NCBI GenBank assembly: GCA_015660995.1
Contig: JACTUC010000004.1
Location: 1-64,000 of the forward strand
DNA from: Candidatus Methanomethylicaceae archaeon
Lineage (GTDB): Archaea > Thermoproteota > Methanomethylicia > Methanomethylicales > Methanomethylicaceae
Direction: 5' to 3'
DNA: 64,000 bases
A model generated the notes under the pieces. That model saw nothing but the letters and a program-made list of their open reading frames with translations. It was not told the DNA's origin and did not search any database. Of this stretch, positions 1 to 60,993 are shown piece after piece (within the stretch, counting starts at the first letter, position 1; each line of letters opens with the position of its first letter). The position numbers and the translations under genes are program-made.

Positions 1-156
1 TTTATATATTTTGTATGGAATGGAGTGGCTTCTGATTACGCTACTGATTATTCTATCATTTTGTGGCTTGCTGTCTTTGGAGCCTTTGGACTTGCCGCTT
101 TCAAGGTAAAAAGAAAAGTAACTCCAACACCTAAGGCGTCTCATACCTTAGACTGA
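1..156 (+). CDS. C-terminal end of a membrane-anchored protein (partial)
   Basis: An open frame enters from the left edge and stops with TGA at 154-156. The visible 51 residues contain one hydrophobic stretch (about residues 20-34, core ILWLAVFGAFGLAAF) followed by a basic KVKRKV segment and a short polar tail. This is the usual shape of a C-terminal membrane anchor with a positive-inside stop-transfer signal. Whether the missing part is a surface protein or a multi-pass membrane protein cannot be told. Too short to exceed typical ORF length limits, so easily missed. Confidence 0.5.
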   Translation, partial: FIYFVWNGVASDYATDYSIILWLAVFGAFGLAAFKVKRKVTPTPKASHTLD

Positions 157-186
157 ACAGGAAGGCGCAATTTAACTTTATATCTT

Positions 187-214
187 GGGTTTGGGTTTGG
201 GGTTAAAATTTAAT
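187..214. repeat. 28-bp G/T-rich direct repeat, copy 1
   Basis: Starts GGGTTTGGGTTTGGGG and continues into a TTAAAATTTAAT tail. The same 28 bases recur at 633-660, so the two copies flank the YdhR-like gene at 237-557. Only three G-runs per copy. Confidence 0.85.
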
Positions 215-236
215 CCCACACATACGAAAACACGCA

Positions 237-557
237 TTAAACAGGACCACGAGTAATCTTTGTGTGTTCAGGCAGTATGTCCCATACCTTTATTTCTATA
301 TCGTAAGCGGAACAACCAGGGCATGTTCTCACGCCTGCGATGATTGGTCCGTTCACATACGCCTCTGCTGATGCTTCGTCTTTAAACAGGTAGATTCCAC
401 CTGCTGTTTTTTCAGCCTCATTCATAAGCCAAATCTTCCATAGAAGTCCCTTGACCTCGCCATTGGGACCGAATCTTGGGGCACCCTCCAGCCAGTGTTT
501 CTCAAGATCGGGTTTCGGATTCCTGAATTTTAAATTTAATTGAACAATCTTCGTCAT
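237..557 (-). CDS. YdhR-like monooxygenase-family protein
   Basis: 106 residues. The pattern (N-terminal strand IVQLNLKF, central W-KIWLMNEAEKTAGGIYLF, then DEASAEAYVNGP and a C-terminal strand) matches the YdhR family of dimeric ferredoxin-like alpha/beta-barrel proteins, listed as putative monooxygenases without a firm substrate. Family assignment is from the GGIYLF-D--SAEAY signature; function is inferred only. The gene is flanked by 28-bp direct repeats (187-214 and 633-660) and has no partner on its strand. The start ATG at 555-557 is followed by a typical first strand. It sits in the AT-rich accessory block next to the integrase. Confidence 0.7.
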   Translation of the reverse strand: MTKIVQLNLKFRNPKPDLEKHWLEGAPRFGPNGEVKGLLWKIWLMNEAEKTAGGIYLFKDEASAEAYVNGPIIAGVRTCPGCSAYDIEIKVWDILPEHTKITRGPV

Positions 558-632
558 TGTCTCATTACCACCTCAGAGTAATAATTGGACAAAGGCACTT
601 GTAACGTTTTAGATTTTGTCTTCAATCGTTTG

Positions 633-660
633 GGGTTTGGGTTTGGGGTTAAAATTTAAT
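633..660. repeat. 28-bp G/T-rich direct repeat, copy 2
   Basis: Identical over 28 bases to 187-214 in the same orientation. It lies directly before the first copy of a second, unrelated intergenic repeat (667-709). Confidence 0.85.
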
Positions 661-666
661 TCGATA

Positions 667-709
667 GTCAACTATACGCCAAAGGTCTTTGGGGCCATGT
701 CTTTGCCCG
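667..709. repeat. Dispersed intergenic repeat, copy 1
   Basis: Begins GTCAACTATACG and ends ATGTCTTTGCCCG. It shares its conserved blocks (GTCAACTAT-CG, AAAGGTCTT, GGGC-ATGTCTTTGCCC) with 2146-2183 and 3219-3261, all on the same strand. GGGC and GCCC can pair as a 4-bp stem over a 9-nt loop in every copy. Spacer lengths between the blocks vary by 2 nt. Confidence 0.8.
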
Positions 710-774
710 AGGTTAATTGTTCAGCATATGTGAGTCAATGTTGTCATTGAGTAAGTATCAAAAGAAGAAAAGTT

Positions 775-2013
775 TTATGAAGGTTCAATGGTTGAAAGTT
801 CTGCTCTCAGTTTGTCATCAATCAAAATGAATTCTGAGTCTAAACATATTATGTTCCAATTGGATGTCAACCCTGGGCTGAATTCTATCTGCGCTATGTC
901 TTTGGATGAGAATATACCTGTTTTAGCCTTTACACGAAAACCGGTAAATATTGAACCATTGTAAGTTACTTCCAATTTGTATTTGTCACCAAGAATTGTG
1001 TAGAGGCGCTTTTGGATAGACGGAATATCTGGGTATATCGCTTTAGCTTCATCTTCAAATGGTTTTTCTGAATAAGCATTATTTGTTTGGTCAGCAATTA
1101 TTGTGTTGCTTTCCTGTTCTGGAAATGCGCTCGCTTGCTTTCTGGACTCCATCAGCTTCCTTAATCTCGCTGATGGGGAATAATCGGGCTCCTCATTAAT
1201 TGTCTTTACATTTCTAGCAGAAAGCCATTCGAATAGATACGCCTTACCAGCTTCATCAAGGGGGTTTGACAGGGTAAACGCTTGATTCTCTCCTTTGATC
1301 TTAAAAATCAGAGACTCAGTTGCTAGTGGAGGACCACGCCCCTTTAATTGTACATTGAGATTGAGCTCTACGGTTTCTATATCAGTCAATGGGGTGTCGA
1401 GGGGTGTTCCACCTAACCTGGTTTTTGTGAAATGATCCCAATAGAAATGATAAGTCCACAAACCCTCATCACAGTGTATTGTATATATTGGAATGCTAGG
1501 GTCATCAGGTTCTTGAACCTCAACAGGTGGAGTTGGTTTCCCAATTTCTGAGACTAAATCGTCCTCAATAGTGTATAATCTATCAGGCGCAAATATCAAT
1601 AGAGACATTACTAACACTTTGGCCTCTTCATCAGTCAAACCTGGATGCTTTGTAAGGATTTTCTTTAAAATCAGTTGAACCTCTTTATCCTTGGTTGTAA
1701 AGGTCAGAGTCCCATCCATGCCATCTTCACTTGGGACATTAATTACAATCTTTAGAATGGAGTCTTTGTATAACTCAAAACATTTCTTGCCTTCAATATC
1801 TTTCACGATTTCGTCAGCGTTCTGATATTTGCTCACTTCAACCGTTGAATTTGGATCGAGAAATACTGCGTATGGCTGTTCGGAAGAACTTGCTTCAGCG
1901 CCAATGATCTTCGTAGACATGATTGCTAGTGAAAAGCCAAAATCAGATTCATATTTCAGATTCCCAGATTTGATAACACCGATTATGTCCTGTGATAACA
2001 AATTAACCACCAC
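775..2013 (-). CDS. Hypothetical protein, 412 aa
   Basis: I do not recognise this protein. It is soluble, with no signal peptide or membrane segment. The order appears to be a beta-rich N-terminal part (residues 1-130), a mid segment after a proline-rich linker (about 165-175, PTPPVEVQEPDDP), a beta-rich domain (175-275), a polar linker (280-340) and a C-terminal beta-rich domain ending in IAQIEFSPGLTSNWNIICL, which recalls PH-like or lipid-binding folds but is not diagnostic. GTG start at 2011-2013 with no clear Shine-Dalgarno; a TATA-like box on the minus strand about 40 bp upstream (around 2050) suggests a short-leader transcript. Alone on its strand, between copies 1 and 2 of the dispersed repeat. 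Confidence 0.55.
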   Translation of the reverse strand: MVVNLLSQDIIGVIKSGNLKYESDFGFSLAIMSTKIIGAEASSSEQPYAVFLDPNSTVEVSKYQNADEIVKDIEGKKCFELYKDSILKIVINVPSEDGMDGTLTFTTKDKEVQLILKKILTKHPGLTDEEAKVLVMSLLIFAPDRLYTIEDDLVSEIGKPTPPVEVQEPDDPSIPIYTIHCDEGLWTYHFYWDHFTKTRLGGTPLDTPLTDIETVELNLNVQLKGRGPPLATESLIFKIKGENQAFTLSNPLDEAGKAYLFEWLSARNVKTINEEPDYSPSARLRKLMESRKQASAFPEQESNTIIADQTNNAYSEKPFEDEAKAIYPDIPSIQKRLYTILGDKYKLEVTYNGSIFTGFRVKAKTGIFSSKDIAQIEFSPGLTSNWNIICLDSEFILIDDKLRAELSTIEPS

Positions 2014-2145
2014 AAATTGTGAGTCGAAACTATTGTGAGTATATCGATTTTATACAAAATAAGTGTTAGTTAGGAAACATGATTTACTAGGTCAAACTTC
2101 GCATCCAATTCCCGAAAAAGGGTATCAATCATATTGACGCGAGTA

Positions 2146-2183
2146 GTCAACTATCCGAAAGGTCTTGGGCTATGTCTTTGCCC
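2146..2183. repeat. Dispersed intergenic repeat, copy 2
   Basis: Shorter copy: GTCAACTATCCG then AAAGGTCTTGGGC and ATGTCTTTGCCC. Two 2-nt spacers present in the other copies are missing, while the core blocks are kept. It lies in the divergent gap between the 775-2013 and 2250-3161 genes. Confidence 0.8.
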
Positions 2184-2249
2184 TTTTGAAGAACAACTCA
2201 TTGACCAGAGTGGGAGTGTATTAATCTTTGCAGCACGAAAGAGGAAGAT

Positions 2250-3161
2250 GTGAAGCTGAAGCTTGACACCAATATAGGCACAACAGCACTTCTGCTCGCA
2301 ATTTTTTCATCAATTTTCTATATCCTTTTCTGGCTATACCTGGCAACGCCATTTTCCAAACCACCCCTTTTTTGGCTGTCCTTTTTACTATGGTTTTTAC
2401 TTGGATTCTTAGGCTTCCTTTTAGCTGATGACAATGAGCATTGGCGAAATTTAGTAGTTTTCGCCTTTTGCTTGTTGCTCATGCCGTTTGCTGCAGGGGC
2501 GACATATTCTGATTTCATGTTTACAGTTACAATAGCCAATGAGGGTTGGGCAGCAGGCTATGGAACTGTCTTGCTTATTTATTTAACAAAACGGTTGCTC
2601 GATCGTAAACGAGGTTTGCCTGCTCAACCAACTCGACCTTTATCAGAGAGAGAGAAAGACGCTTACAAACTATGTGCATACAGCGCAATATCAGTAGTTT
2701 ATCTTTTTATTGCATATCGCTTTAACGTGCTCGGGTATGGCTCATTTTGGTATTGGGTCCTTGTAATTCTCTATGTTCTTTGGTGGATTACGCTAGGTTG
2801 GTTTGCCTACAAGTATAGGTCGAGATTTATAATTCGCCTAGTGACAAAATATTCGTATAAGCAGAGAATTGTCGTAACTTTGTTCATGATTGGCATAATT
2901 CTCATCGGGACAATTATTGGCTACATGGCTGTTACTGGACAAAATATACAATTGACTACGGCTGTTGATTGGGTCTATTGGGGTCTGGTTATTGTTATTA
3001 ATGTGATGATAGGTTATGTGTTCTTTCGGGCAATAGGTAATCTGCAAAATAACAGAATGAAATTGTTTGGCATTCTTGTTATATTATTGGATATATCCCT
3101 AATGTTCCTCATTTTCCCCGTTTTCTTTTTACCCTTTCTTACAGGTTTGATCCCATGGTAA
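2250..3161 (+). CDS. Multi-pass membrane protein, unknown
   Basis: 303 residues with about eight or nine hydrophobic segments: roughly residues 10-32, 38-60, 70-85, 95-112, 140-158, 168-186, 208-228, 240-256 and 270-300. There is a short basic loop after the fourth (KRLLDRKRG) and a cluster of charged residues before the fifth. No conserved transporter or enzyme motif is visible, so no function is proposed. GTG start at 2250 preceded by GAGGAAG. Like its neighbours it is a single-gene unit in the accessory block, with dispersed repeats on both sides. Confidence 0.55.
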   Translation: MKLKLDTNIGTTALLLAIFSSIFYILFWLYLATPFSKPPLFWLSFLLWFLLGFLGFLLADDNEHWRNLVVFAFCLLLMPFAAGATYSDFMFTVTIANEGWAAGYGTVLLIYLTKRLLDRKRGLPAQPTRPLSEREKDAYKLCAYSAISVVYLFIAYRFNVLGYGSFWYWVLVILYVLWWITLGWFAYKYRSRFIIRLVTKYSYKQRIVVTLFMIGIILIGTIIGYMAVTGQNIQLTTAVDWVYWGLVIVINVMIGYVFFRAIGNLQNNRMKLFGILVILLDISLMFLIFPVFFLPFLTGLIPW

Positions 3162-3218
3162 CGTCAGTTAATATTACCTCAGCATGATTTTGGAAGCAAA
3201 GACTGACCTATAGCCCGT

Positions 3219-3261
3219 GTCAACTATACGATAAAGGTCTTCTGGGCCATGTCTTTGCCCG
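3219..3261. repeat. Dispersed intergenic repeat, copy 3
   Basis: Begins GTCAACTATACG and ends ATGTCTTTGCCCG, and matches copy 1 except in the two variable spacers. It sits 8 bp from the stop codon of the SRPBCC gene, between two converging genes. Confidence 0.8.
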
Positions 3262-3269
3262 TGATTAGC

Positions 3270-3713
3270 CTAAGACTGCGCTTCAGATTCCAGTATGCGC
3301 TTTACGTTGTAGACGGTGTCTACAACCGATTTATTCAACGTGCGGGTAACAAATGGCGCGAGCAGTTTGTAGAAGCCATTATACTTTAGGTCATTGCTCG
3401 AGGTGAATCGGGTCTTTCCTTCAATGGTCTCCATGCTGAAGGTGACTATGCTTCCCTTTGCAGGCCCAGAGGTGAACTCGAGAGAGAACTTTCGGTTGGG
3501 CTCGTATTCGATGACTCGTTGCGAAACCGTCATTTTTCCCATTACTTGAACAGTTAAGTCGCATGTCGCACCCACCCCGATTGGCCCTGCAGAAGTCCAC
3601 TTCGCTTCGGAAACAGATGTATCCCACTTAGTGAGTTTCGATAGGTCGGTTATGAGCTTCCAGGCCGCCTCCGCAGGACGGTCAATCAAAACGCTCGCCA
3701 CAATCTTCACCAT
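3270..3713 (-). CDS. SRPBCC-fold protein (CoxG/polyketide-cyclase-like)
   Basis: 147 residues with the START-like SRPBCC pattern: N-terminal IVASVLIDRPAEAAWKLITD, then DLSKLTKWDTSVSEAKW, a central SQRVIEYEPNRKFSLEF strand pair, and a long C-terminal helix (residues 110-145). The fold forms a hydrophobic ligand pocket, and members bind or transform lipids and polyketides, so the ligand cannot be predicted. Start ATG at 3711-3713. No operon partner. It differs from the typical accessory genes here only in being a recognisable family. Confidence 0.8.
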   Translation of the reverse strand: MVKIVASVLIDRPAEAAWKLITDLSKLTKWDTSVSEAKWTSAGPIGVGATCDLTVQVMGKMTVSQRVIEYEPNRKFSLEFTSGPAKGSIVTFSMETIEGKTRFTSSNDLKYNGFYKLLAPFVTRTLNKSVVDTVYNVKRILESEAQS

Positions 3714-3950
3714 ATTGACGCCTCCTAAAGGAAAATTTTGGGTATTTTTGCCGCGCTCTCCTCGGTGCTCATTGCTAAAGCATTAGATTGCAGGAAATAA
3801 TTAACAATGATCACAAAACGTTACAATGTTTTATCTCCAAGAATTTTTCCATGGGCAAAATGACTGACCTGTGGCTGTAAGAAGAAGGAAACAAATCCAT
3901 GAATAACCACACATGGGCCTGATTTATCGATTACTTTGAGCTTTTTGCGT

Positions 3951-4436
3951 TTACTTTTTTCGTTTGGTCTGTTTCAGAATAGTATTTCCTTTCCGATCTT
4001 TAAATTCAATTGATTCTTTCGGGGTCGTAAAATATTTCCTCTCCTCCTCCGGAAGCCTATCTAAAAACTCCTTACTATATTTACCAGCTAATGTAGCCGC
4101 ATCACTTTTCCAATATCTGTATTTGACTCTATATTCTTCCTTATTCCTTTCTGCTAACTCAGATTTACGAGAATCATCCTTGTAATATACACATAAAACA
4201 TATTCCGTTTGGCCTTCTTGAAGTTCATTATTAACTTTAGCTTCATGAAATCCATGGTTTTGTAATTCATTAATTCCTATGCGAATTAGCTTATCCTTAT
4301 CCTCAGAAAAAAATAGATATTTACCTGTTATTCTGTAGGTCGGTTTCTCATTTCTTAATAACCAAATCCAATAACCATCAAAAATGATTTTTACTTCTTG
4401 AGATATTTTCCATACGCCCCAAAATCTTGTACCCAT
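3951..4436 (-). CDS. Hypothetical protein downstream of HNH gene
   Basis: 161 residues, very rich in Lys, Glu and Tyr in its C-terminal half. No family recognised. The N-terminal part (YWIWLLRNEKPTYRITGKYL) looks like a compact beta-strand region that could bind nucleic acid, but this is a guess. The ATG at 4434-4436 makes it overlap the end of the upstream HNH-type gene by 46 bp; no closer ATG/GTG/TTG start exists in a suitable place, so either the overlap is real (translational coupling) or the start is non-standard. The two genes appear to form one unit. Confidence 0.5.
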   Translation of the reverse strand: MGTRFWGVWKISQEVKIIFDGYWIWLLRNEKPTYRITGKYLFFSEDKDKLIRIGINELQNHGFHEAKVNNELQEGQTEYVLCVYYKDDSRKSELAERNKEEYRVKYRYWKSDAATLAGKYSKEFLDRLPEEERKYFTTPKESIEFKDRKGNTILKQTKRKK

Positions 4437-4837
4437 TTATGTTGAGAGCGTTCTTGCCATGTTTTAAAGGCATTATCCACATGCTCTGCAAATTCTTTTT
4501 CGGAACAACCATTGACCTTGCAAAAATGTCTCTCAACTTCAGTATAATCAAGCTTTCCTTCATCAGCTAGTATCTTGGCCATACCAATATGCTTAACATG
4601 ATGACACATTGCGCATAGAAGAATAAAACCATCGAGTCTCTGAATGTGGTGCTTATCATCATAATTCCATATCTCATGGAGCTTCATTTTTCCTTCAGTT
4701 TCACTACAAATCTGACATTTCCTTCCGTTCTCTCTGATGATCTCCTCTCGCAACTTATTCCATACTTCGGTTGGTAATAGCCTATATAATGATGAATACC
4801 AGACTGTTGAAGGAACGAGCTCGGCAGTTAATTTCAT
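4391..4837 (-). CDS. HNH-endonuclease-like zinc protein
   Basis: 148 residues. A CxxC knuckle (KCQICSE), then LHEIWNYDD, then a second knuckle followed by histidines (LLCAMCHHVKH) make a treble-clef HNH-like arrangement with four zinc-binding cysteines. The KLHEIW-YDD...LLC--CHHVKH pattern is one I know from HNH-type proteins in bacterial and archaeal accessory regions, generally of unknown target. Nuclease activity is inferred from the fold, not shown. First gene of a two-gene unit with 3951-4436, and divergent from the DEDD exonuclease-like gene at 4894, so a defence or element-maintenance role is plausible. Confidence 0.6.
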   Translation of the reverse strand: MKLTAELVPSTVWYSSLYRLLPTEVWNKLREEIIRENGRKCQICSETEGKMKLHEIWNYDDKHHIQRLDGFILLCAMCHHVKHIGMAKILADEGKLDYTEVERHFCKVNGCSEKEFAEHVDNAFKTWQERSQHKWVQDFGAYGKYLKK

Positions 4838-4893
4838 GGGATCCTCAACTATTATTAGTCGTATAAAGTCATAATCTTTACGAGTCGAACAGA

Positions 4894-5541
4894 ATGTATC
4901 TTGTAATTGACATCGAAACTGAAAATTTAGGCACAGATGTCATGAAAGACAATAAACGAATTCTGTCCGTCCAAATAGGTGACAATGTTAGTCAAATCTT
5001 ATACTGGGCTGATTCTAAGGATCCTAAAAGAAATTTACAAAGCGCAAAAAAAGATATATTGTCATTATTATCTGAAGGTGTCATTTTTACTGGATATAAT
5101 ATAAAGGGATTTGATACGATTTTTCTAGCTAAGTTTTTAGGCATTGTATTACCTGAATCAAATCTTCTTGACCTTAATCACCCACAAAAACTGGCTGAGC
5201 TCACTAGCATACGTAAGCCTCGCCTTGAAGAAATTTGCTTAGCTTGTGGTATTGATGTGCGCCATAAGCAACGTATGAACGAGAGGGCACAAAAGTATGC
5301 GGTAAAAGAAGAATTCAAAAAGGCAGCATCTGCCAAAGCTAACGAATTAGTGAAAGAAAAAGGCTGGTCCTTAGATTTTGCCTATAGATATTCTTTGGAC
5401 AAAATATGCCTTGGCAATGCAATTTATTATGCTTATATAGAATTTATTGATAGTGATGAGCCAAAAAATACACTCTTCTACGAGTATGCGATTGGCGATG
5501 TTATTGTTGAATACGCTCTTCTTAAGAAGATGAGATATTAA
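4894..5541 (+). CDS. DEDD-type 3'-5' exonuclease-like protein
   Basis: 215 residues with the three exonuclease motifs of the RNase H-like DEDD fold: Exo I VIDIETENLG (D6, E8), Exo II TGYNIKGFDTIFL around residues 67-79, and Exo III YEYAIGDVIVEY near the C terminus with its Asp and Tyr. This resembles the proofreading domain of family B polymerases without the polymerase. An insertion (about residues 115-165, lysine-rich helix) separates Exo II from III. It starts 57 bp from the divergent HNH gene. Probable role: nucleolytic processing of element or target nucleic acid. The substrate is unknown. Confidence 0.65.
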   Translation: MYLVIDIETENLGTDVMKDNKRILSVQIGDNVSQILYWADSKDPKRNLQSAKKDILSLLSEGVIFTGYNIKGFDTIFLAKFLGIVLPESNLLDLNHPQKLAELTSIRKPRLEEICLACGIDVRHKQRMNERAQKYAVKEEFKKAASAKANELVKEKGWSLDFAYRYSLDKICLGNAIYYAYIEFIDSDEPKNTLFYEYAIGDVIVEYALLKKMRY

Positions 5542-5671
5542 AACATGTAACATTAAGTTTCATTGAGATCACCATCAGCCCCATGTTCCACCATTATTTA
5601 GTCTGGCTTCGAATAGTGATTTGAAAATTTCTTATTTTAAGAATAAATAAGAAAAAAGCAAAGGAAAAAAA

Positions 5672-6556
5672 TCAATAAATATTTTTTCGCATGAAGACAT
5701 TTGCCTGAGTAGTCGTCACTACATTCCATCCTTCAGTAAGCATCTTGCAGATCTCATCGACCTTCTCAATAGCAATAGCCTTAGCTTCAAAGCGATTGCT
5801 ATCAAAATTGATAATATGCGTGTAGATCTCCGTGTTCTTGATATTTCGATGACCAAGCTGAGTCTTCACAAGCACGAGATCCTTGGTCTCCCGGTAGAGC
5901 CTTGAAGCATAGAAGTGCCTGAACGTATGAAGATGAACCTTATTCGCCTCAGAAAGATTATACTTCTCAACAACCTTCTTCCGATATTTGACGATAGCTT
6001 TTCGAAGCCTATTTGCCTTCAATGGCTGATCATTCCGCATGAATAGAGGTCCAGTTGTTCTGCCTTTGACGATTATTCTATTTACCTTCTCCAGAAGCTT
6101 ATCAGAGATCTTCACTTGCCGGGTTGAGAGCCCTCCTGCCTTCGCGGTCTTTATGGTAACGACATTGTTCTTCAAATCCTCGACATTCAGTTCAATCAGT
6201 TCAATCGTCCTGCACCCAGTATCCCGAAAGAACTCAAAGATGACCGCATAGAAGACATTGGCATTGTCAATTATCTTGTTTATAACATCCTCAGACGGTA
6301 TCTCCGGGACTTTCTCGTACCTCTTCTTCAACCCACCATGAAGCTTCTGTTTAGGTCTCTGAATGTTCTGTATCTTACAATAAATTGAATACGCATTTTG
6401 AAGAGTCATCTTACGAAGATCGCCGGTGTTCTTCGTTCTGATAAAATCACAGACCAGATTCGCATTATCTAGATCTATATAATTATTAATATACAACAGG
6501 TTCTTCACATACGCATCAATGGTATACTTGCTGTATGGTGGATCTGCTCTAAGCAT
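5672..6556 (-). CDS. Tyrosine recombinase / integrase
   Basis: 294 residues from ATG 6556. The catalytic set is present: Arg I in RDTGCRTIELIEL, the beta-hairpin lysine region VVTIKTAK, HxxR in LHTFRHFYASRL, and LGHRNIKNTEIYTHI with the conserved His and nucleophilic Tyr. The N-terminal core-binding domain is recognisable (YSKYTIDAYVKNLLYINNYI). The same frame stays open upstream to a GTG at 6652, running through the 3' part of tRNA-Ser(CGA); ATG 6556 is preferred, but the longer start cannot be excluded. Its position against a tRNA 3' end is classic for site-specific integration, with the tRNA T-arm and acceptor end as the attachment core. Confidence 0.85.
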   Translation of the reverse strand: MLRADPPYSKYTIDAYVKNLLYINNYIDLDNANLVCDFIRTKNTGDLRKMTLQNAYSIYCKIQNIQRPKQKLHGGLKKRYEKVPEIPSEDVINKIIDNANVFYAVIFEFFRDTGCRTIELIELNVEDLKNNVVTIKTAKAGGLSTRQVKISDKLLEKVNRIIVKGRTTGPLFMRNDQPLKANRLRKAIVKYRKKVVEKYNLSEANKVHLHTFRHFYASRLYRETKDLVLVKTQLGHRNIKNTEIYTHIINFDSNRFEAKAIAIEKVDEICKMLTEGWNVVTTTQANVFMRKNIY

Positions 6557-6623
6557 TTCGTCTTTTACATGCAGTATCTGTGGTAGTCTTGATATTCTAG
6601 CTGGTTGGGTACCAATTATTAGG

Positions 6624-6729
6624 CGCCGGGGAAGGGATTCGAACCCTTGCACCCCCGAAGAGGCACCGGCTTGCCTGTCCCTTTTCGAAGATCTCGAGGC
6701 CGGCGCTTTAACCGCTCAGCCACCCCGGC
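6624..6729 (-). tRNA. tRNA-Ser(CGA) with one intron
   Basis: Class II tRNA on the minus strand. Acceptor GCCGGGG pairs with CCCCGGC and is followed by G73, the serine discriminator. Anticodon stem CCGGC/GCCGG; loop CT-CGA-G with the anticodon at 6694-6696. A 21-nt intron (6672-6692) interrupts after position 37, the canonical archaeal site. Long variable arm GTGCCTCTTCGGGGGTGC; T-arm AGGGTTCGAATCCCT. After G73 the genome reads CCT, so the CCA end is not fully encoded. Mature length about 85 nt. An integrase gene abuts its 3' end. Confidence 0.9.
6672..6692 (-). other. tRNA-Ser(CGA) intron
   Basis: 21-nt insertion between tRNA positions 37 and 38. Its removal restores a seven-base anticodon loop CTCGAGA over a perfect CCGGC/GCCGG stem. 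Expected substrate of the archaeal splicing endonuclease; the exons would be joined by RtcB, encoded less than 1 kb away. Confidence 0.85.
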
Positions 6730-6798
6730 TCAACTGATACTAAGTATCGGTTTTAATAATGTTTTTCCCTAGAAAGCAACAATAACCCGGGCATGCAA

Positions 6799-6814
6799 TA
6801 TCCCTATCGGGATA
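6799..6814 (+). promoter_or_regulatory. Leader hairpin before archease start
   Basis: TATCCC-TATC-GGGATA forms a perfect 6-bp stem with a tetraloop and ends 3 bases before the TTG start at 6818. The 3' arm contains GGGA, the only Shine-Dalgarno-like stretch near this start, so folding would mask it. Function inferred. Confidence 0.45.
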
Positions 6815-6817
6815 GCC

Positions 6818-7240
6818 TTGGTTTATTCATACCTGGATCATATCTCGGACGTCTACATACACATACATAACGACACGCTGGAGGGCGTATTCGAAGAGGC
6901 TGCGATCGCGTCTTTCGATGTAATTATCGAGACTTCCAAAGTGCGTATCAAGACTATAATTAATGTTGAGCTCGACGCAGATGACCTAGAGCAGCTTCTC
7001 TACAAATGGATAGACCACTTGCTCTACATCTTCGATGCAAAGAGTTTTGCAATCTCCAGAACCGAAGTCATAGTCTCTGAAAAAAAGACCAACCCCTCCC
7101 TCGTTGCGAAGATCTACGGCGAGAGCTATGATCCAAAGAAACATGGCCAGAAAGTGGCAGTAAAAGCAATGACATATTCCCTAATGCGCATATACAAGAA
7201 AGGAGACCATTGGGAAGCGTACTTTGTGCTCGACATCTAA
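6818..7240 (+). CDS. Archease, RtcB activator
   Basis: 140 residues, usual archease length. The N-terminal YLDHISDVYIHIHND corresponds to the metal-binding DHTADVxI motif, the central acidic segment is NVELDADDLEQLLYKWIDHLLYIFDA, and the C terminus VKAMTYSLMRIYKKGDHWEAYFVLDI ends in the conserved Asp. In known systems archease speeds RtcB guanylylation and multiple turnover during tRNA ligation. Start TTG 6818 gives MVYSYLDH with the motif at the expected distance. rtcB follows at 7378, transcribed in the same direction but with its own TATA-like box, so the pair is linked in location and function. Confidence 0.9.
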   Translation: MVYSYLDHISDVYIHIHNDTLEGVFEEAAIASFDVIIETSKVRIKTIINVELDADDLEQLLYKWIDHLLYIFDAKSFAISRTEVIVSEKKTNPSLVAKIYGESYDPKKHGQKVAVKAMTYSLMRIYKKGDHWEAYFVLDI

Positions 7241-54385: not shown

Positions 54386-54393
54386 CGAATAGC
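54386..54393. repeat. Left target-site duplication
   Basis: CGAATAGC directly before the left terminal repeat, matched exactly at 60986-60993. Eight bases, the length typical of IS6-type DDE transposition. Confidence 0.95.
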
Positions 54394-54444
54394 GGTTCTG
54401 GTCAACCTCGGGGTGGTCAATCAGGATTGGTCAAATAGGGTTGG
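54394..54444. repeat. Left terminal inverted repeat, 51 bp
   Basis: Identical, when reversed and complemented, to 60935-60985 at every one of 51 positions. It begins GGTTCTGG and ends AGGGTTGG, with GGTCAA repeated three times at about 15-bp spacing. The hsdS-like stop is 12 bp inside it. Confidence 0.98.
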
Positions 54445-54456
54445 TAAAGCTGGGCT

Positions 54457-55821
54457 CTACGGCAATAGCTCAATTTTATTGTTAGTCTCTATGGCTTTTT
54501 CTAGGGTCTCAATAGCTTCTACGATTAACCCCTTTGATTTTGCTCTAGCTTCATAACAATGATTAACAAGAGGCACAAACTCTTTCAAAACATCATCTGG
54601 AGGAATTGGGATTTGCACTCTCTCAACGTCCACATCATCTATTGTCGGATAAGATGTTCCCGTTGTTGGTTTCTTCATCTGAAGTTTTCCGACAACAGAC
54701 CTCATCACAACATAGATATATTCTTTCCATGGTGATGATGCTTCAAACACAGAGAATGCAGAACTACATATTGCGTCTTTGTTGAATTCTTTCGGGATTA
54801 TTCCTATAGCACCACGAGTCGGCCTAACTTTAGAAATAATTAGCTCCCCCCCTCTTATGGGTACACGAGCATTGGGGGGCAATTCTTTCCCTAATCTTTC
54901 GGTGTAATGAACCTCCCCCACATCGGTTGAGACATCACCTATTTCTATGTACTTGTAGGTTTTTTCTGGGTCTGGTTTGATCTTGGTAATTCTTCTTTGA
55001 GCTAATCTTTCCAAACTTCTCAATTCAGACTTTGAGGACAACGTTTTTAGAAGCTTCTCGTAAAATGGTTGGAAATACTCAGCATCCATCCTGTTCGCTT
55101 TTCTTAGTTCGGATAGTGACTTTTGATAGGATAAGCTCTGAGTGAATTTTGCATTTTCTATCCCGCTTTTTTCAAGAAATAGGTTTTCTGCTTTTTGCAA
55201 AATCTGAACCGAGTCTATTCTTTGAATATAAGCATCATGTACTAACTTTCTGATTGCTTCAACAGTCTTCCTATCTGCACTAATCACGAATACTTTCTTC
55301 AAATCAGGAAGAATGAGTCCTTTTTGAACTGTCCCTCTGATATTTCGCCTTATCTGAGCTTGACCATACTTGGAAGCCAGATATATGAAGAGATATTCTG
55401 GTTCAATGGTTTTTGACCGAATTATTGCCAATTTGCAATTAGCAGTAAGCCGTTCTTCTCTATCTGTAGCTAACGCAATATTGCCGATAGTTCCCACAAT
55501 GGATAGCAAGATGTCATTGTTTTTGACATGTGAACGTTTCAGTTTCAAATAAACGCTTTCTGGAATAAAAATGGGGTTGCTATCATCTATGAAAAATTCT
55601 ATTACATCTTGACCTCTCAGGTATCTAACTCCTTTTTCAACAAATTCTTCAGCAATTGAGAGATGATTTCCATCGGTTACATCTGCGACTTTGCATAGTT
55701 GTTCACTATTTATTCTTAATAGATTAGAATACAGTGCAATATACTCTGGGCTGAAGTATTCAGAATCGCAGCGAGCGTTTTTAACTATTTCCTCTTTATT
55801 AACGATCGACACTTTAGGCAT
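54457..55821 (-). CDS. Restriction-modification specificity subunit (HsdS-like)
   Basis: 454 residues. Two similar halves, each with a target-recognition domain followed by a conserved helical spacer. The start of each is visible as ARCDSEYFSPEYIALY (about residue 17) and NRMDAEYFQPFYEKLL (about 237), and each ends in a helix rich in Glu/Lys (ETLEKAIETNNKIE in the second). Two TRDs imply a bipartite recognition sequence. It follows the methyltransferase gene by 2 bp. It is therefore the DNA-reading subunit of the complex. Confidence 0.88.
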   Translation of the reverse strand: MPKVSIVNKEEIVKNARCDSEYFSPEYIALYSNLLRINSEQLCKVADVTDGNHLSIAEEFVEKGVRYLRGQDVIEFFIDDSNPIFIPESVYLKLKRSHVKNNDILLSIVGTIGNIALATDREERLTANCKLAIIRSKTIEPEYLFIYLASKYGQAQIRRNIRGTVQKGLILPDLKKVFVISADRKTVEAIRKLVHDAYIQRIDSVQILQKAENLFLEKSGIENAKFTQSLSYQKSLSELRKANRMDAEYFQPFYEKLLKTLSSKSELRSLERLAQRRITKIKPDPEKTYKYIEIGDVSTDVGEVHYTERLGKELPPNARVPIRGGELIISKVRPTRGAIGIIPKEFNKDAICSSAFSVFEASSPWKEYIYVVMRSVVGKLQMKKPTTGTSYPTIDDVDVERVQIPIPPDDVLKEFVPLVNHCYEARAKSKGLIVEAIETLEKAIETNNKIELLP

Positions 55822-55823
55822 TT

Positions 55824-57746
55824 TTACGTCTTCCAGAAACTTAATTCTTCTTTCTTGGCAAACTCAATGAAATTTTCTGCTATTTTATCGAGATCATGCT
55901 CAACGATCAGATGACCGTGTTTATCAATTTCAGGTTCACCTAATTCATTCTTTTTAAAGACATATTCGCCTGAACTGGCTTTTCCTGACTTCTCGGAAAT
56001 CGCTAAAAAGATTGGATAGTCTTCTTTCTTTGGGCATAGCTTGTCATCCCATTTTTGTAAGAATAAAACAGATGTTTTGGTTCCTGCGTGCGGTCTAAAT
56101 GTGTTGTCGCCTAGACTTACGACGGCGAGTATTCTCGCTTTTTCCATAATGTATTCTCTAACGTATTCATCCATTATATTGTTGAAGCGTCCTTGAGGCA
56201 AGACTATAGCCATTCGTCCTCCACTTTTTAGAAAGTCAATGCATCTTTCTATAAATAATACATCCCTGCTCATTCTTTGACTTTGTTTTCCATTCTTTTG
56301 AGCCAAATCATAATTCTTCAAGATTTGTTTTTCTCTAATATCCCCTGCAAAAGGGGGATTTGTCATCAGAATGTCGAAGCCAAAGTAGCGAAAATTCTCT
56401 TGGTTATCTTTATCTAATTCTTGATCATCTGGAAATCTTGTCAAGAAAGTTCTCAGTGCAGCTTTGCCTTCTTCGTTCCAAGATTTTGGGTCAAGGGAGT
56501 TAAGTTTGTAAACATTTTGTTTTCCATCCCCCGCAATAAGGTTAAGAGCCTTGGCAATCTTGACGGCTCTATCGTCGAAATCAATTCCGTAAACCATTGT
56601 CGATGCGTATTCTGCCTGTTCTCTAGTAGGTGCGCTTATGGAGTCTTCGCCCCATATCCAGAAGAAGGTATGAACAGTGAAGCCACAAGAACCTGCAGCC
56701 GGATCTATTACATATTCAGGTTCTTTGGGGTTGAACATTTTTACGCACATGTCTATGACATAGCGAGGCGTAAAGTATTGCCCTTTAGACCCTTTTGCGA
56801 CTTGAGTGACCAGATATTCGAATGCTTCATCAATAATCTGTAGGTTAGCATTGAAAAGCTTGATGTCTTGCAGAAAAGAAATGCAGGTGTACAAATGAGA
56901 TGGGCTTAACTCAATCTTATCAAGTGGCCTGAAAACTCCCCGCCATTTTTCGTTAGCTTGGTTAAATAACCCATTTATCTTTTGATAGAGTTCTAATGGG
57001 GATTCACCATAGATTCTGAAATAAATTCGCCTGTTTCGATCTCGTAAATTCTTAGCTGCCCATTCATCAAATAATTTAGCATAGATTAATTTGAAGACCT
57101 CATCAAAAGCATCAACTCCAGCATTTGCCAAAACCAAGTTTTCCAAATCAAGGATGACACTTTTTAAGGAAAGCCTCTCTTTAGCAAGTTTATTCTCTTG
57201 AGCAAGTTTGTCGATAGTCCAAGGTTCTTTTATGACATCTATGAGGGATTGATCAACTGATGGAATGCTGGAAAGCTGTGAAAAAATGTTTGGTTCCTCT
57301 CTATGTAAAATAACCAAAGCTTCGCCATTAGTCCAAACGCCGATTGGGGAGCCTTCCGCATTGCAATACGATTTCAACTGTTGAATGCCATCAGCTCTGT
57401 TAGGTTTTTTGGCTTCAACTATGATATAGGGATGTTCCATATCTTTTTGATAAACAATGATGTCTGCTGCTTTTTCGTGAACCCCAGAACCAAACCAAAC
57501 TTCTTTTTCAACACCTATTCTTTCTTTTGGATAACCGTATTCCGTCATCAATTTCTTTATGAAAAGTTGCCGCACAATCTCTTCTGGTTTTGCTGGCCTT
57601 TCAATATCAGAAGCAAAACATTTCAAATATGGCTTACCATTTTTTTCGAAAAGCATCATTGACTCAATATCGCTTTGTTTGAATAGCCTTAATTTATGTT
57701 TGACATTAGGGTCTTTGAAGATCAAGTCAACCGTAACTTTGCTCAT
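55824..57746 (-). CDS. Fused restriction nuclease / N6-adenine methyltransferase (BcgI-like)
   Basis: 640 residues from ATG 57746, which has GGGGTGGG just upstream (a longer ATG at 57797 does not). N-terminal PD-(D/E)xK domain: AADIIVYQ (D95) and IIVEAKK (E111, K113), as in HsdR N-terminal domains. Helical linker 180-300. Methylase: GQYFTPRYV (322-330), motif I DPAAGSCGF (348-356), motif IV TNPPF (462-466). With a separate HsdS-like subunit and no helicase this fits type IIB (BcgI-like) organisation, which cuts and methylates with the same complex. Type I would need a translocase subunit, not seen in this window. Confidence 0.88.
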   Translation of the reverse strand: MSKVTVDLIFKDPNVKHKLRLFKQSDIESMMLFEKNGKPYLKCFASDIERPAKPEEIVRQLFIKKLMTEYGYPKERIGVEKEVWFGSGVHEKAADIIVYQKDMEHPYIIVEAKKPNRADGIQQLKSYCNAEGSPIGVWTNGEALVILHREEPNIFSQLSSIPSVDQSLIDVIKEPWTIDKLAQENKLAKERLSLKSVILDLENLVLANAGVDAFDEVFKLIYAKLFDEWAAKNLRDRNRRIYFRIYGESPLELYQKINGLFNQANEKWRGVFRPLDKIELSPSHLYTCISFLQDIKLFNANLQIIDEAFEYLVTQVAKGSKGQYFTPRYVIDMCVKMFNPKEPEYVIDPAAGSCGFTVHTFFWIWGEDSISAPTREQAEYASTMVYGIDFDDRAVKIAKALNLIAGDGKQNVYKLNSLDPKSWNEEGKAALRTFLTRFPDDQELDKDNQENFRYFGFDILMTNPPFAGDIREKQILKNYDLAQKNGKQSQRMSRDVLFIERCIDFLKSGGRMAIVLPQGRFNNIMDEYVREYIMEKARILAVVSLGDNTFRPHAGTKTSVLFLQKWDDKLCPKKEDYPIFLAISEKSGKASSGEYVFKKNELGEPEIDKHGHLIVEHDLDKIAENFIEFAKKEELSFWKT

Positions 57747-57892
57747 GTTTTCCCACCCCTTGTCGCTCGTGGCGTATCCCAATAGGGGCTTTTGCACTTG
57801 GGGCAGACCTTGGGTGCATTGATTTTATTTCTTGGCAACCATTCATGCCCACAACGTTCACAGCGATAACCCCATAATTGCACTTTACTCAT
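57743..57892 (-). CDS. 49-aa zinc-ribbon protein leading the RM operon
   Basis: MSKVQLWGYRCERCGHEW start; CxxC (C11, C14) and CPKCKSPYWD (C30, C33) make a rubredoxin-like zinc ribbon. ATG at 57892, stop within the ATGA that starts the methyltransferase, so the two are coupled. Too short for most predictions. Such ribbons are common in archaea and often act as regulators or adapters; here its position as first gene suggests control of RM expression, as a C protein would. The latter is inference. Confidence 0.7.
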   Translation of the reverse strand: MSKVQLWGYRCERCGHEWLPRNKINAPKVCPKCKSPYWDTPRATRGGKT

Positions 57893-57897
57893 ATATA

Positions 57898-57921
57898 AAT
57901 TGTATATTACGAATTGTATAT
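57898..57921 (-). promoter_or_regulatory. Direct repeat AATTGTATAT x2 upstream of the zinc-ribbon/RM operon
   Basis: Copies at 57898-57907 and 57912-57921 (14-bp spacing), 6-30 bp before the zinc-ribbon ATG and overlapping TATA-like sequence on the minus strand. Probable promoter with repeated operator-like sites. Confidence 0.5.
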
Positions 57922-57952
57922 AAGACTTGCTATTATACCAATAATTATATAT

Positions 57953-57983
57953 ATTACCTCCTAGTATATTACTATTAGGTAAT
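57953..57983 (+). promoter_or_regulatory. 31-bp palindrome before the transposase gene
   Basis: Arms ATTACCTCCTAGTA (57953-57966) and TACTATTAGGTAAT (57970-57983) around TAT; 12 of 14 pairs match. It ends 4 bp before the transposase ATG and contains its AGGT ribosome-site candidate. Either an operator or an mRNA hairpin limiting transposase translation. Confidence 0.6.
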
Positions 57984-57987
57984 TAAA

Positions 57988-59127
57988 ATGATGAGTATGA
58001 CAGAAATGATGGAAACAAGGGCTTTAAGAGCTTATTCAATCGTTGATAGCTCATCAATAACCCCGCTTGACAAAGACTCATTTTTAGTTCCTTCCCAATC
58101 GAAGAATGGCAACAAATACCGAGTAGAGAGAATTAATGATAACGCATGGTCATGCGAATGCGCCGACCATCAATTTAGAAGGATGATCTGCAAGCATATT
58201 CTTAGTGTCCAACTCTGGCTTAACCTAACCAAGAATCTCAAGCCAAAAGCGATCAAGCCAGAGTACTCAGAAGTTCATGAGTGTAAGTTCTGCGGCTCGA
58301 CCGAGCTGATGAAGTATGGCAAGAAAACCAAGCAGTTCAAGCAACGCTACTATTGCAAGTCATGCCAGAGAACCTTTGTGCCAGATTCCATCACAAGAAA
58401 GATGTGGTTCAGACCTGAAGTCGTGACGAGTGTTTTAGACCTCTATTACAAGGGTGTTAGTCTAAGGAACATTCAGGATCACCTAAGCCAAATATGCGGA
58501 GTACAACTTAACAGCCATGCCACGATTTTAAACTGGATTAAGAAGTACGAGTCACTGATAGGCGATTACGTCAAGACCCTCAAGCCAGAGATAGGAAAAC
58601 AGTGGCACGTCGATGAGATGAAAGTAAAATTTGGCGGTTCTTGGAAGTGGCTCTGGAATGTCATGGACAAGGACACCCGATTCCTTCTGGCATCCAACAT
58701 AACTGAAAGCAGGGATGTTGATGATGCAAGGGAAGTATTCGCTCTGGCTAAGGAAATAGCCAAGGGCCAGAAGCCAGAGAGGATAATCTCGGATGGACTG
58801 CCAGCCTATAAGAAAGCTGTAATCAAGGAGTTCTTCACCATTAGGAAACCGAGGACTGAGCATGTCAGCCACATCCACCTGACGGGTGACATTAACAACA
58901 ACCTCATAGAGAGGCTTCACGGAACTAAGAGGGATAGGGAAAAGGTCTTCAGGGGATTGAAGAAAGAAGAAACACCTATCATACCGATGCAAGACATCTA
59001 TTACAACTTTGTAAAGCCACACCAAGCATTACAAGGCAAGACCCCTGCCGAGAAGTCTGGCATAGGCATAGAAGATAGAAACAAGTGGCAAGGGTTAATT
59101 GAGAAATCCACTGCCTTAAAATCTTAA
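57988..59127 (+). CDS. DDE transposase with N-terminal SWIM zinc finger
   Basis: 379 residues. SWIM finger WSCECADHQFRRMICKH (C56, C58, C68, H70), zinc ribbon C99/C102 and C123/C126, helix-turn-helix about 140-180, then an RNase H-like catalytic core with D209 (WHVDEMKVKF), D269 (IISDGLPAYKKA) and E308 (NNNLIERLHGTKRDREKVFRG). The C-terminal YYNFVKPHQALQGKTPAE closes the core. The catalytic part resembles the IS6/IS240 type, whose 8-bp target duplication matches. No closer inverted repeats flank the gene alone, so it probably mobilises the whole element. Confidence 0.92.
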   Translation: MMSMTEMMETRALRAYSIVDSSSITPLDKDSFLVPSQSKNGNKYRVERINDNAWSCECADHQFRRMICKHILSVQLWLNLTKNLKPKAIKPEYSEVHECKFCGSTELMKYGKKTKQFKQRYYCKSCQRTFVPDSITRKMWFRPEVVTSVLDLYYKGVSLRNIQDHLSQICGVQLNSHATILNWIKKYESLIGDYVKTLKPEIGKQWHVDEMKVKFGGSWKWLWNVMDKDTRFLLASNITESRDVDDAREVFALAKEIAKGQKPERIISDGLPAYKKAVIKEFFTIRKPRTEHVSHIHLTGDINNNLIERLHGTKRDREKVFRGLKKEETPIIPMQDIYYNFVKPHQALQGKTPAEKSGIGIEDRNKWQGLIEKSTALKS

Positions 59128-59247
59128 TTTTTTATTGATTCCCAATTAGTATTTAAGCAAATTTAATAAACTAATAAGCTAAGAGAAACAAGAGGAGCAT
59201 ATTTTTAAGGTGGGCATTATTGTTGAGCCTAATAAAAGGTGAATTGC

Positions 59248-60009
59248 GTGCCGATTACTGAGATTTTTCCTAATCCCACCGTGAAACAAGTGATATTTGA
59301 AATAAGGTATCCTAATTTGTTTTTCTTGGAAAATAAAATCGGTGATTTGCAACAAAAGATAATGGGGGAATTTCCTAAATCTGCTCTTCTTTTTAGAAGA
59401 CAAATTGTTTTAGCTGATGTTGGTCCACAGGGCAAATTAGAGGAAATCTCTGGTAAATTTGATGAAATGGGGAGCAAGAAGATTTGGCAATTTCAATCGA
59501 ATAAGGGCTACAAATTGAACATTTCTACCAACTCCCTAGATATAACATCAGAATACCACAAGACCTACAATTTAGGTAGTGGCGATAGATTCAGAGAAGT
59601 AATTAAAAATGCGTTAGATAATTTTTTTGAATTAACTATGATACCGACAGTTACACGAATTGGCCTAAGATATGTTGATGAGTGCCCAATTCCAAACAAG
59701 ACTAATAGAACATTTAAGAGATATTATAAGTCAGTTTTCCCTATTGAAAGATTTAACTTGGCGCAATCTGAGGAAATGTTCTTTAGAACTGTAACAACCA
59801 AAGATAACCTTGGATTAATATACATGGAAACCTTGGCAAAAGTGCAGGATAAATATAAATTGGTTTTAGATTTTGATGGTTTTGCAACTAATGTTTCTTC
59901 CCCAGAATGTTTAGCGACTACTGATAAGTTACATGATTTAATAGTAAAGGAATATGAAAACACGATAAAGGAACCAGTTTATGAATATATGCGACAACGA
60001 AGGGATTGA
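59248..60009 (+). CDS. TIGR04255-like protein of unknown function
   Basis: 253 residues from GTG 59248 (AGGTGA 5 bp before; an earlier GTG at 59239 overlaps that site). Start VPITEIFPNPTVKQVIFEIRYPNLF, middle SNKGYKLNISTNSLDITSEYHKTY, then FFELTMIPTVTRIGLRYVDECPI and C-terminal LDFDGFA... HDLIVKEYENTIKEPVYEYM. This is the pattern of the sporadic TIGR04255 family (strand-helix N terminus and R-GLRY-D), which has no known activity. First of three consecutive cargo genes. Family call moderate, function unknown. Confidence 0.65.
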   Translation: MPITEIFPNPTVKQVIFEIRYPNLFFLENKIGDLQQKIMGEFPKSALLFRRQIVLADVGPQGKLEEISGKFDEMGSKKIWQFQSNKGYKLNISTNSLDITSEYHKTYNLGSGDRFREVIKNALDNFFELTMIPTVTRIGLRYVDECPIPNKTNRTFKRYYKSVFPIERFNLAQSEEMFFRTVTTKDNLGLIYMETLAKVQDKYKLVLDFDGFATNVSSPECLATTDKLHDLIVKEYENTIKEPVYEYMRQRRD

Positions 60010-60011
60010 TA

Positions 60012-60281
60012 ATGGACAATGATCTGAAAGAAGTTGGTTATGAACCACCTGAAAATGATTACAAATCGTTTAAATCGCAAGGTACTGGAGGACACTCAAT
60101 ATCACAAGAGTATAAGACAATTGTTTTTCCTTTTGACAAATATGAGATTACAGTCAAATTGACATTAAATAATGAATTTGTCAACATTGAAGGAGTGAAA
60201 ATAAATAAAGATTTCACGTCTTACAAACAAAAGATAACGTCTAACGGCTTCCATGATGTAGAAAAATTCTACAAAGAGTAA
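60012..60281 (+). CDS. Small hypothetical protein, 89 aa
   Basis: ATG 60012, 2 bp after the preceding stop. A soluble, acidic N-terminal half (DNDLKEVGYEPPENDYKSFK) and a beta-rich C-terminal half (TIVFPFDKYEITVKLTLNNEFVNIEGVKI). No family recognised. The pairing of one small and two mid-sized genes is a pattern of toxin-antitoxin or defence modules, but no toxin fold is evident. Confidence 0.55.
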   Translation: MDNDLKEVGYEPPENDYKSFKSQGTGGHSISQEYKTIVFPFDKYEITVKLTLNNEFVNIEGVKINKDFTSYKQKITSNGFHDVEKFYKE

Positions 60282-60288
60282 CAGGTAT

Positions 60289-60918
60289 ATGTTCTATACC
60301 GAAAAGGTAGACACCGATCTCAGATTTGGTGATGTTGTTAGAGGTTTTTTTGCAGTTACGCCAAATATCAACGAGCCATTTGTTAATGGTGCCAATAAAA
60401 ATTATAATATCGATGTTGTTTTTCCAGTATATTCGGTTATCATAGATCCATGTTGCCAGATAGGATCTAAACAAATCTCATTAACGCCATTAATTGAGAT
60501 CTGGCGATCTTTTTTTGATAATCCTTACTTGGTTGAAGACTTAACACGTATTAACAAACAAATGAAAGCTCAACAAGCAACCCCTCCAAATGATTGGAAC
60601 AACTATCCTGAAGAAAAGAAGGCAACAGAACTAAGAGAAGGACTACGTTATGCCTTCATTAGCCTTTTTGTTTATGAAAAACACTCGCCACTCCCTGAGT
60701 ATACTATTGATATGAAAGGATGTAAAAAAACAACAGGGTATTATATGATCGATTTTAGAAATATCCATAAAGTTTCATGTGATAAAATTCGAAAACCATC
60801 TGATGCAATAGAAACTAAAGTGCTGGAATTGTCTATTGTAACAAGAAATCAACTAAGGGATAAGATCGCAAGTTATTATGGGACTCGTATAAAAGAAGAT
60901 TTAACTGCTGAGGATTGA
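60289..60918 (+). CDS. Hypothetical protein, 209 aa
   Basis: ATG 60289, 7 bp after the previous stop. RFGDVVRGFFAVTPNI then PVYSVIIDPCCQIGSKQISLTPL recalls a loose group of accessory-island proteins with a GD-V...S-DC-I pattern near a beta-barrel; the match is weak and gives no function. The rest is helical (KKATELREGLRYAFISLF) with a Cys near 163 (KVSCDKIRK). Ends 16 bp before the right terminal repeat; a T-run follows. Confidence 0.55.
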   Translation: MFYTEKVDTDLRFGDVVRGFFAVTPNINEPFVNGANKNYNIDVVFPVYSVIIDPCCQIGSKQISLTPLIEIWRSFFDNPYLVEDLTRINKQMKAQQATPPNDWNNYPEEKKATELREGLRYAFISLFVYEKHSPLPEYTIDMKGCKKTTGYYMIDFRNIHKVSCDKIRKPSDAIETKVLELSIVTRNQLRDKIASYYGTRIKEDLTAED

Positions 60919-60928
60919 ATTTTTTTGA
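60919..60928 (+). terminator. T-run after the last cargo gene
   Basis: ATTTTTTTGA directly after the stop at 60918 and before the right inverted repeat. Likely limits read-through into the host S15 promoter. Confidence 0.4.
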
Positions 60929-60934
60929 TAGCTT

Positions 60935-60985
60935 CCAACCCTATTTGACCAATCCTGATTGACCACCCCGAGGTTGACCAGAACC
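60935..60985. repeat. Right terminal inverted repeat, 51 bp
   Basis: Perfect inverse complement of 54394-54444; begins CCAACCCT and ends CCAGAACC. Identity for all 51 bases marks the element edge. Confidence 0.98.
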
Positions 60986-60993
60986 CGAATAGC
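60986..60993. repeat. Right target-site duplication
   Basis: CGAATAGC, same as 54386-54393. The S15 TATA box begins 5 bp further on. Confidence 0.95.

Follow-up and report, generated by a model that had tools for sequence, protein, structure and literature searches.

We propose that positions 54,394–60,985 of the window, by which we mean the whole 64,000-nucleotide stretch of archaeal DNA that was analysed, hold an intact DNA transposon belonging to an IS6-related, SWIM-containing archaeal lineage with exchangeable cargo, and we put the probability of this reading at roughly 85%. More broadly, we consider it probable that this lineage constitutes an undescribed, phylum-wide family of archaeal cargo transposons, which would combine an IS6-related transposase of the SWIM type, long ends in which binding words recur, a tiny, swappable regulator in a fixed divergent slot, and swapped cargo that includes recurring restriction-modification (RM) and conflict genes. 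Such a family would be the archaeal equivalent of the unit transposons of bacteria and could carry defence genes from one archaeon to another.

Between its outer tips the element proper measures 6,592 bp; the span given in the first-pass annotation, 54,386–60,993, includes both target-site duplications. The left terminal inverted repeat (54,394–54,444, + strand, tip GGTTCTG) and the right one (60,935–60,985, − strand) are each 51 bp long, are 100% complementary, and form the sole inverted pair of such size in the region. Directly outside them lies the 8-bp sequence CGAATAGC, exact at both 54,386–54,393 and 60,986–60,993 (+ strand) and absent elsewhere in the 64-kb window, which confirms the earlier claim of two perfect 51-base inverted repeats with an 8-bp duplication abutting them. 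Any 8-mer found twice in 64 kb would be unremarkable alone (1.5 are expected); this pair is unusual because its copies abut exactly the two outer tips of perfect 51-bp inverted repeats, and the same search gave 0 matches with IS6-like tips in 558 mismatched-flank controls. Three copies of the word TGGTCAA sit within the left repeat (positions 6, 21, and 35 of the repeat). The GC content of the element is 38.0%, against 50.6% in the left flank and 53.2% in the right, and seven genes fill the space between the ends with little spare DNA: the S subunit, the RM fusion, and a 49-aa zinc ribbon run leftward, and the transposase, a TIGR04255 protein, an 89-aa ORF, and a 209-aa ORF run rightward. The transposase, RM operon, and three unknown genes listed at first reading are all present; that list, with six genes instead of seven, had missed the zinc ribbon. 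The perfect ends and the duplication likewise support the view, taken at the same time, of a complete element with one transposase, RM cargo, and ends that look recent. No RNA family was found in or around the element, and there is no tRNA gene in the 64-kb window; therefore, this is not a tRNA-targeting integrated element. A search for other copies of the 51-bp repeat, which had been suggested as a check, yielded none elsewhere in the 1.63-Mb genome; the repeats of relatives are built alike and differ from this one. That the genome holds just one copy, and that no movement is on record, speaks against the transposon reading. The element may still be able to move, and by analogy it could do so either through a replicative cointegrate, as for IS26-type elements, or by excision.

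What did the target look like before insertion? The neighbours are an ITPase (Ham1) gene upstream and the gene for ribosomal protein S15 downstream. ITPase was present in 39 of the 41 genomes searched, and S15 was also found in all 29 fetched relative loci, 28 of which have ITPase followed by S15 on one strand. The locus in relatives usually reads Bud32-ITPase-S15-RecJ, contiguously, with no element between ITPase and S15, and the gap between these two genes is mostly about 48–72 bp (at one locus it is 271 bp, with no comparable element present); the gap in the window, once the element is subtracted, is 61 bp. Nucleotide alignment has the relatives reading straight across the junction, for example ATAGCTAAACCTTAAATAATAG in locus L041 versus ...GAATAGC / TAAGGCTTAAATAATGG in the window, and the uninterrupted L041 junction, ATAGCTAAACCTTAAATAAT, contains the target once. 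Since the relatives run straight through the junction, the target is single in the empty site. The first-pass annotation had made its proposal depend on finding empty sites in which a single target joins the ITPase and S15 flanks, and such element-free junctions do exist in relatives. A conserved TATA-like sequence ahead of S15, CTTAAATAAT, stays intact in the alignment just downstream of the insertion and may act as a promoter; the element, inserted just upstream of it, parts ITPase from S15 without removing the box. Within the host's own family, elements of this kind occur in 2 of 22 genomes, a rarity that fits horizontal arrival.

The element has many sisters. A transposase profile (A1) was positive in 48 of 398 genomes of the phylum, the survey being confined to this one phylum, and 57 loci (the fetched regions, with L064 and the window included) were searched, on either side of the transposase, for inverted repeats with a precise 8-bp repeat directly outside them. 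IS6-like tips bordered by an exact 8-bp duplication were found at 32 of the 57 loci, which had been chosen for good transposase matches, such that the proportion is not an estimate of prevalence; the count was 0 among the 558 controls, each of which paired the left flank of one locus with the right flank of another. Other duplication lengths (5, 6, 7, 9, and 10 bp) gave at most two tip matches in the same test. The 37 elements that were annotated, namely those with the 8-bp duplication together with L067, L078, and L080 (good ends, no exact duplication) and the weak L107, range from 578 to 7,119 bp, with a median of 3,322. Three more family members with 8-bp duplications (L134, L135, and L136) come from viral-contig records; the contigs are classed as viral by IMG/VR, and the elements may reside in proviruses or the contigs may be misclassified. 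A search of GTDB contigs by peptide pattern returned one distant transposase match only, without a detectable target duplication. The host genome itself carries a second, different member of the family (L065; contig C24, 5,099–10,063; 4,965 bp) flanked by the duplication AGATTTCG, the cargo of which comprises an aspartyl-protease-like protein and other unknown genes. At L079 (7,818–8,395), a 578-bp MITE-like deletion form has kept perfect ends of 52 bp together with the final third of the transposase.

The ends differ in sequence from one element to another and share a layout in which GGTTCTG is followed by a word that reappears deeper inside. Copies of this tip word, alike in 7 or more of 8 bases, lie at +28/29 or +37/38, above 200 shuffles, and the mean similarity to the tip word at +28 is 3.45 of 8, compared with 3.03 for the largest of 200 shuffled sets. 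Terminal repeats reach 81 bp among the sister elements, and L135, which also has a zinc ribbon gene, bears a similar series of GGTGAAA words. We regard the repeated words as candidate tandem binding sites for the transposase. In the mechanism that we propose, one DDE transposase would recognise the long ends by the GGTTCTG tip and the further copies of the tip word, insert the whole 6.6-kb unit, and duplicate 8 bp of target.

That transposase (379 aa; 57,988–59,127, + strand) has a SWIM-like Cys/His site, a CxxC zinc ribbon, and a DDE domain (D209, D269, E308). It matches PF13610 (DDE_Tnp_IS240) at 5e-18 and 66 bits (cut-off 27) and the NCBIfam IS6 model NF033587 at 121 bits, 4 below the cut-off of 125; the Pfam SWIM model alone is sub-threshold, at 15.0 versus 19.6 bits. 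Across 11 full-length transposases, the SWIM-type residues C56, C58, C68, and H70, the ribbon cysteines C99, C102, C123, and C126, and the catalytic D209, D269, and E308 are all invariant. Bacterial plasmid IS6 proteins align with the transposase only over the ribbon, the helix-turn-helix, and the catalytic parts, with 27–31% identity. A structure model is confident only for the first 80 residues and is poor outside the N-terminal domain. Judged by its domains and conserved residues, the transposase is IS6-related, with a predicted additional SWIM-like zinc finger at its N-terminus; a word search of two papers on the IS6 family turned up no mention of SWIM. A PADLOC PD-DExK match to the transposase (0.018) was too weak and was set aside.

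Divergent from the transposase, the first gene of the leftward operon encodes the 49-aa zinc-ribbon protein (57,743–57,892, − strand), the stop codon of which overlaps the start of the RM fusion gene (ATGA) and which matches Zn_ribbon_8 at 1.7e-6, below the family cut-off. Between the two divergent genes, an imperfect inverted repeat, ACCTCCTAGTA-TAT-TACTATTAGGT (57,956–57,980, no strand assigned), can be read from the sequence and is a candidate operator. With the MITE-like form excluded, 33 of 36 elements have a tiny gene on the strand opposite to the transposase, directly upstream of it. By inspection, the occupants of this slot are 16 RHH-like proteins, 14 AbrB/MazE-like proteins, and 3 zinc ribbons; Pfam backs MazE in 9, plus several RHH families and zinc ribbons. 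Leave-one-out profiles recover the slot gene in 32 of 36 elements; their remaining matches are 2 elsewhere within elements and 6 across 490 kb of outside sequence. The window's zinc ribbon is 65% identical to the same-slot gene of L071, whereas the two transposases are only 38% identical, and the type of small gene does not track the transposase tree (16 changes versus a shuffled mean of 14.2); thus, the slot is conserved and its occupant is swapped. In our working model, the core of the transposon would consist of the two ends, the transposase, and the tiny divergent DNA-binding gene, everything else being exchangeable cargo, and the tiny protein is probably a repressor that acts on the promoter region common to the divergent genes and on the cargo operon. 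Might the small gene instead be a toxin-antitoxin remnant, or plain cargo, with no regulatory part in the transposon? In favour of this are the AbrB/MazE and RHH folds, which antitoxins typically have, and the independence of gene type from the transposase tree; however, a nearly invariant position with a variable type (32 of 36) is what one would expect of a single role open to any small DNA-binding protein, and we consider the toxin-antitoxin or plain-cargo explanation unlikely, while giving it appreciable weight. L088 and L090, with transposases 57% identical, share the same RHH gene with a partner of 164–169 aa, possibly a two-gene toxin-antitoxin-like unit.

Downstream of the zinc ribbon lies the RM module. 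The fusion protein (55,824–57,746, − strand; 640 aa from the ATG at 57,746) has an HSDR_N_2 nuclease-type domain (PF13588, 1.7e-25) followed by an N6-adenine methyltransferase (PF02384, 2.2e-33; PADLOC MTase_I, 7e-218), at residues 71–179 and 321–638, respectively, in the numbering of the 657-aa ORF. Motifs are readable in both parts: D...(E)AK in the nuclease-type domain and DPAAGS and NPPF in the methyltransferase. The S (specificity) subunit (454 aa; 54,457–55,821, − strand) matches PF01420 at 8.6e-10 and PADLOC Specificity_I / mad5, has two target-recognition stretches, and counts the solved S subunits 5ybb and 3okg among its relatives. The best solved relative of the fusion protein is the type IIB enzyme RM.BsaXI (1.7e-28), with sequence similarity restricted to the methyltransferase part, residues 372–566; RM.BsaXI has been described as (RM)2S (PMC11997821). 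Like the type IIB systems BsaXI and BcgI, the module pairs a single-chain fusion of nuclease and methyltransferase with a separate S subunit that has two recognition domains. Predicted from these domains, the module is probably a type IIB-like enzyme, which is the best reading and is one in which the earlier description of defence-like cargo holds for this part of the element. The S subunit would pick a two-part site at which the fusion protein methylates or cuts, and the enzyme could both shield the cell from foreign DNA and penalise loss of the element.

A type I filing was rejected, as the element is without HsdR, the translocase subunit of type I systems. A MADS filing was rejected as well: the MAD2 model matches the M protein (4.7e-88, 296 bits, 720 needed) and the MAD5 model matches the S protein (7.6e-42, 144 bits, 400 needed) end to end, far below their cut-offs, and the remaining MAD genes are absent from the element. 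These two sub-threshold matches nonetheless suggest a partial type I or MADS-like system, one that only methylates or that borrows the host's type I nuclease, and the type I HsdR encoded by the host, which has its own S subunits, could in principle work with the element's subunits. Such a partial system would leave unaccounted for the HSDR_N_2 nuclease-type domain of the fusion, and it sits poorly with some plasmid relatives of the fusion: those in Klebsiella and Trichormus pair the fusion with S, and their listed neighbourhood shows no HsdR. Taken with the lack of any further MADS gene in the element, this makes a partial system unlikely, and we retain the type IIB-like assignment. The plasmid relative in Picosynechococcus is a single chain of 1,180 aa; identity is 46–49% for the best two plasmid relatives. 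On the host chromosome, contig C27 carries at ∼13.8–19.7 kb a type I restriction locus with one HsdR and two S genes.

On the other side of the transposase, the rightward operon encodes a TIGR04255-family protein (256 aa; 59,239–60,009, + strand; TIGR04255 at 6.7e-23 and 81.8 bits, cut-off 30), an 89-aa ORF (60,012–60,281, + strand, ATG at 60,012) with no family match, and a 209-aa ORF (60,289–60,918, + strand). No relative of the 209-aa protein was found in 300 genomes of the phylum, plasmids, phages, viral contigs, or the PDB, and its single-sequence structure model, with a pLDDT of 33, is uninformative. The TIGR04255 protein has two very weak relatives in the same 300 genomes and no plasmid relative, and a literature search found no paper naming its family; a PADLOC PDC-M24A match to it (0.0014) was too weak to keep. 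We suggest that this trio could form a second cargo module. A role in defence or stability is plausible, and no more than that, because the operon adjoins the RM module.

How fixed is the cargo? The first-pass annotation had described the RM module as fixed cargo, a description that does not survive the comparison with sister elements: no relative carries the same gene set, and near-identical transposases bear unrelated cargo. For example, the transposases of L089, L090, and L091 are 85–90% identical, those of L069 and L070 86%, and those of L086 and L088 83%, and these groups share no cargo save one weak match between L069 and L070. RM genes are found in 5–6 elements of the family, the window's included: L078 has an N6_Mtase and an S gene; L087 has HSDR_N_2, N6_Mtase, and Methylase_S in one chain that is 27.7% identical to the window's RM protein; L112 has a 976-aa Eco57I-type protein; L067 has an M.Eco57I-like protein; and L080 has a fragment. 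Further cargo includes a ParB-like protein in L067, Fic in L105, PIN and an RNase H-like nuclease in L068, NYN in L104, a ParB-like protein in L086, and elsewhere two HEPN_AbiV proteins and one SocA/Panacea antitoxin domain. Proteasome-like (Ntn hydrolase) proteins are encoded by L073, L091, L100, and L122, that of L100 falling below the Pfam cut-off, and most cargo genes of the family have no family match. Conflict-type genes thus recur, and the cargo is not confined to defence. By eye, L136 has proteasome-like cargo as well.

Where should such elements be filed? Like IS6 family members (IS26, IS240, and the archaeal clades Ai–Aiv of Varani 2021), the window element has a DDE_Tnp_IS240 domain, GG..CTG tips, and an 8-bp duplication; unlike them, it has an N-terminal SWIM finger and zinc ribbon, 51-bp repeats as opposed to 15–20, 5 kb of cargo, and a divergent regulator gene. 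The IS6 review gives terminal repeats of 15–20 bp and transposase genes of about 0.7–1.8 kb, with a maximum of about 1.76 kb (PMC7986276). Measured against the family definition, the 8-bp duplication and the IS240/IS6-type DDE domain are present; the repeats, which do show the GG tip and CTG, are 51 bp and not short, and the element is not compact and passenger-free, at 6,592 bp with six non-transposase genes. It is an IS6-related transposon and not a strict member of the IS6 family, because short ends and an absence of cargo are both lacking. Harmer and Hall (2019) argued that archaeal elements are distant, should not sit in the IS6/IS26 family, and perhaps form a separate family. IS6 clades h and i (Clostridia, Halanaerobia, and Thermoanaerobacter) also have an N-terminal zinc finger, to which clade i adds a further N-terminal domain; in the parts of the literature at hand, these clades are described as bacterial, with no mention of SWIM and no cargo reported.

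A simpler account would make the window element a passenger-carrying IS6 insertion sequence (a "tIS"), the product of a one-off capture of neighbouring genes. There is a precedent, since the IS6 review lists one passenger-carrying member, the single-copy ISDsp3 of Dehalococcoides, which holds one hypothetical passenger gene inside one pair of IS ends (Varani 2021, PMC7986276), and the window transposase is itself IS6-related. In contrast to this sole listed case, the window family has multi-gene, exchangeable cargo in many archaeal elements; more than 30 sisters with varied cargo, SWIM throughout, and a conserved regulator slot point to an established cargo lineage, which makes a one-off capture improbable. 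The first-pass description of an undescribed system is accordingly apt for the transposon family, in which no fewer than 32 other elements are laid out in this way, set against one named passenger carrier, and not for this lone element. A search of the open literature, with subscription papers and ISfinder outside its scope, found no description of the family.

Bacterial unit transposons of the Tn3- and Tn7-like kinds have their own transposase, long ends with repeated binding motifs, and variable cargo. The window element would work alike with a single IS6-related transposase, there being no resolvase and no Tns proteins in the element. A casposon was rejected, no Cas1-type integrase or PolB being present in the element. 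That the element is merely what is left, dead or non-autonomous, of a larger virus or conjugative element ending in IS6-like repeats, as its lack of a second copy in the genome and the occurrence of some relatives in contigs classed as viral might suggest, is very improbable given the perfect ends and duplication, the intact transposase with all catalytic residues, and the finding of no capsid, integrase, or conjugation gene inside it.

Transposons with diverse passengers are common in bacteria and had gone undetected in archaea (Krupovic 2019, PMC6563490); a family of over 30 such elements in archaea, clearly bounded, flanked by duplications, and variable in cargo, would close this gap. It would also account for one way in which genes for restriction and abortive infection pass among archaea, and it would offer a minimal system, with one transposase and defined ends, that could be tried out for archaeal genetics. 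Additionally, a fixed slot occupied by unrelated DNA-binding folds raises the testable question of how such elements control themselves.

At the far end of the window, positions 1–7,000 are AT-rich (GC 0.35–0.44 versus about 0.52) and include a phage-type integrase gene (5,672–6,652, − strand) as well as genes for an RNase_H_2-like protein (4,894–5,541) and an SRPBCC-type protein (3,270–3,713); this region is probably another integrated element.
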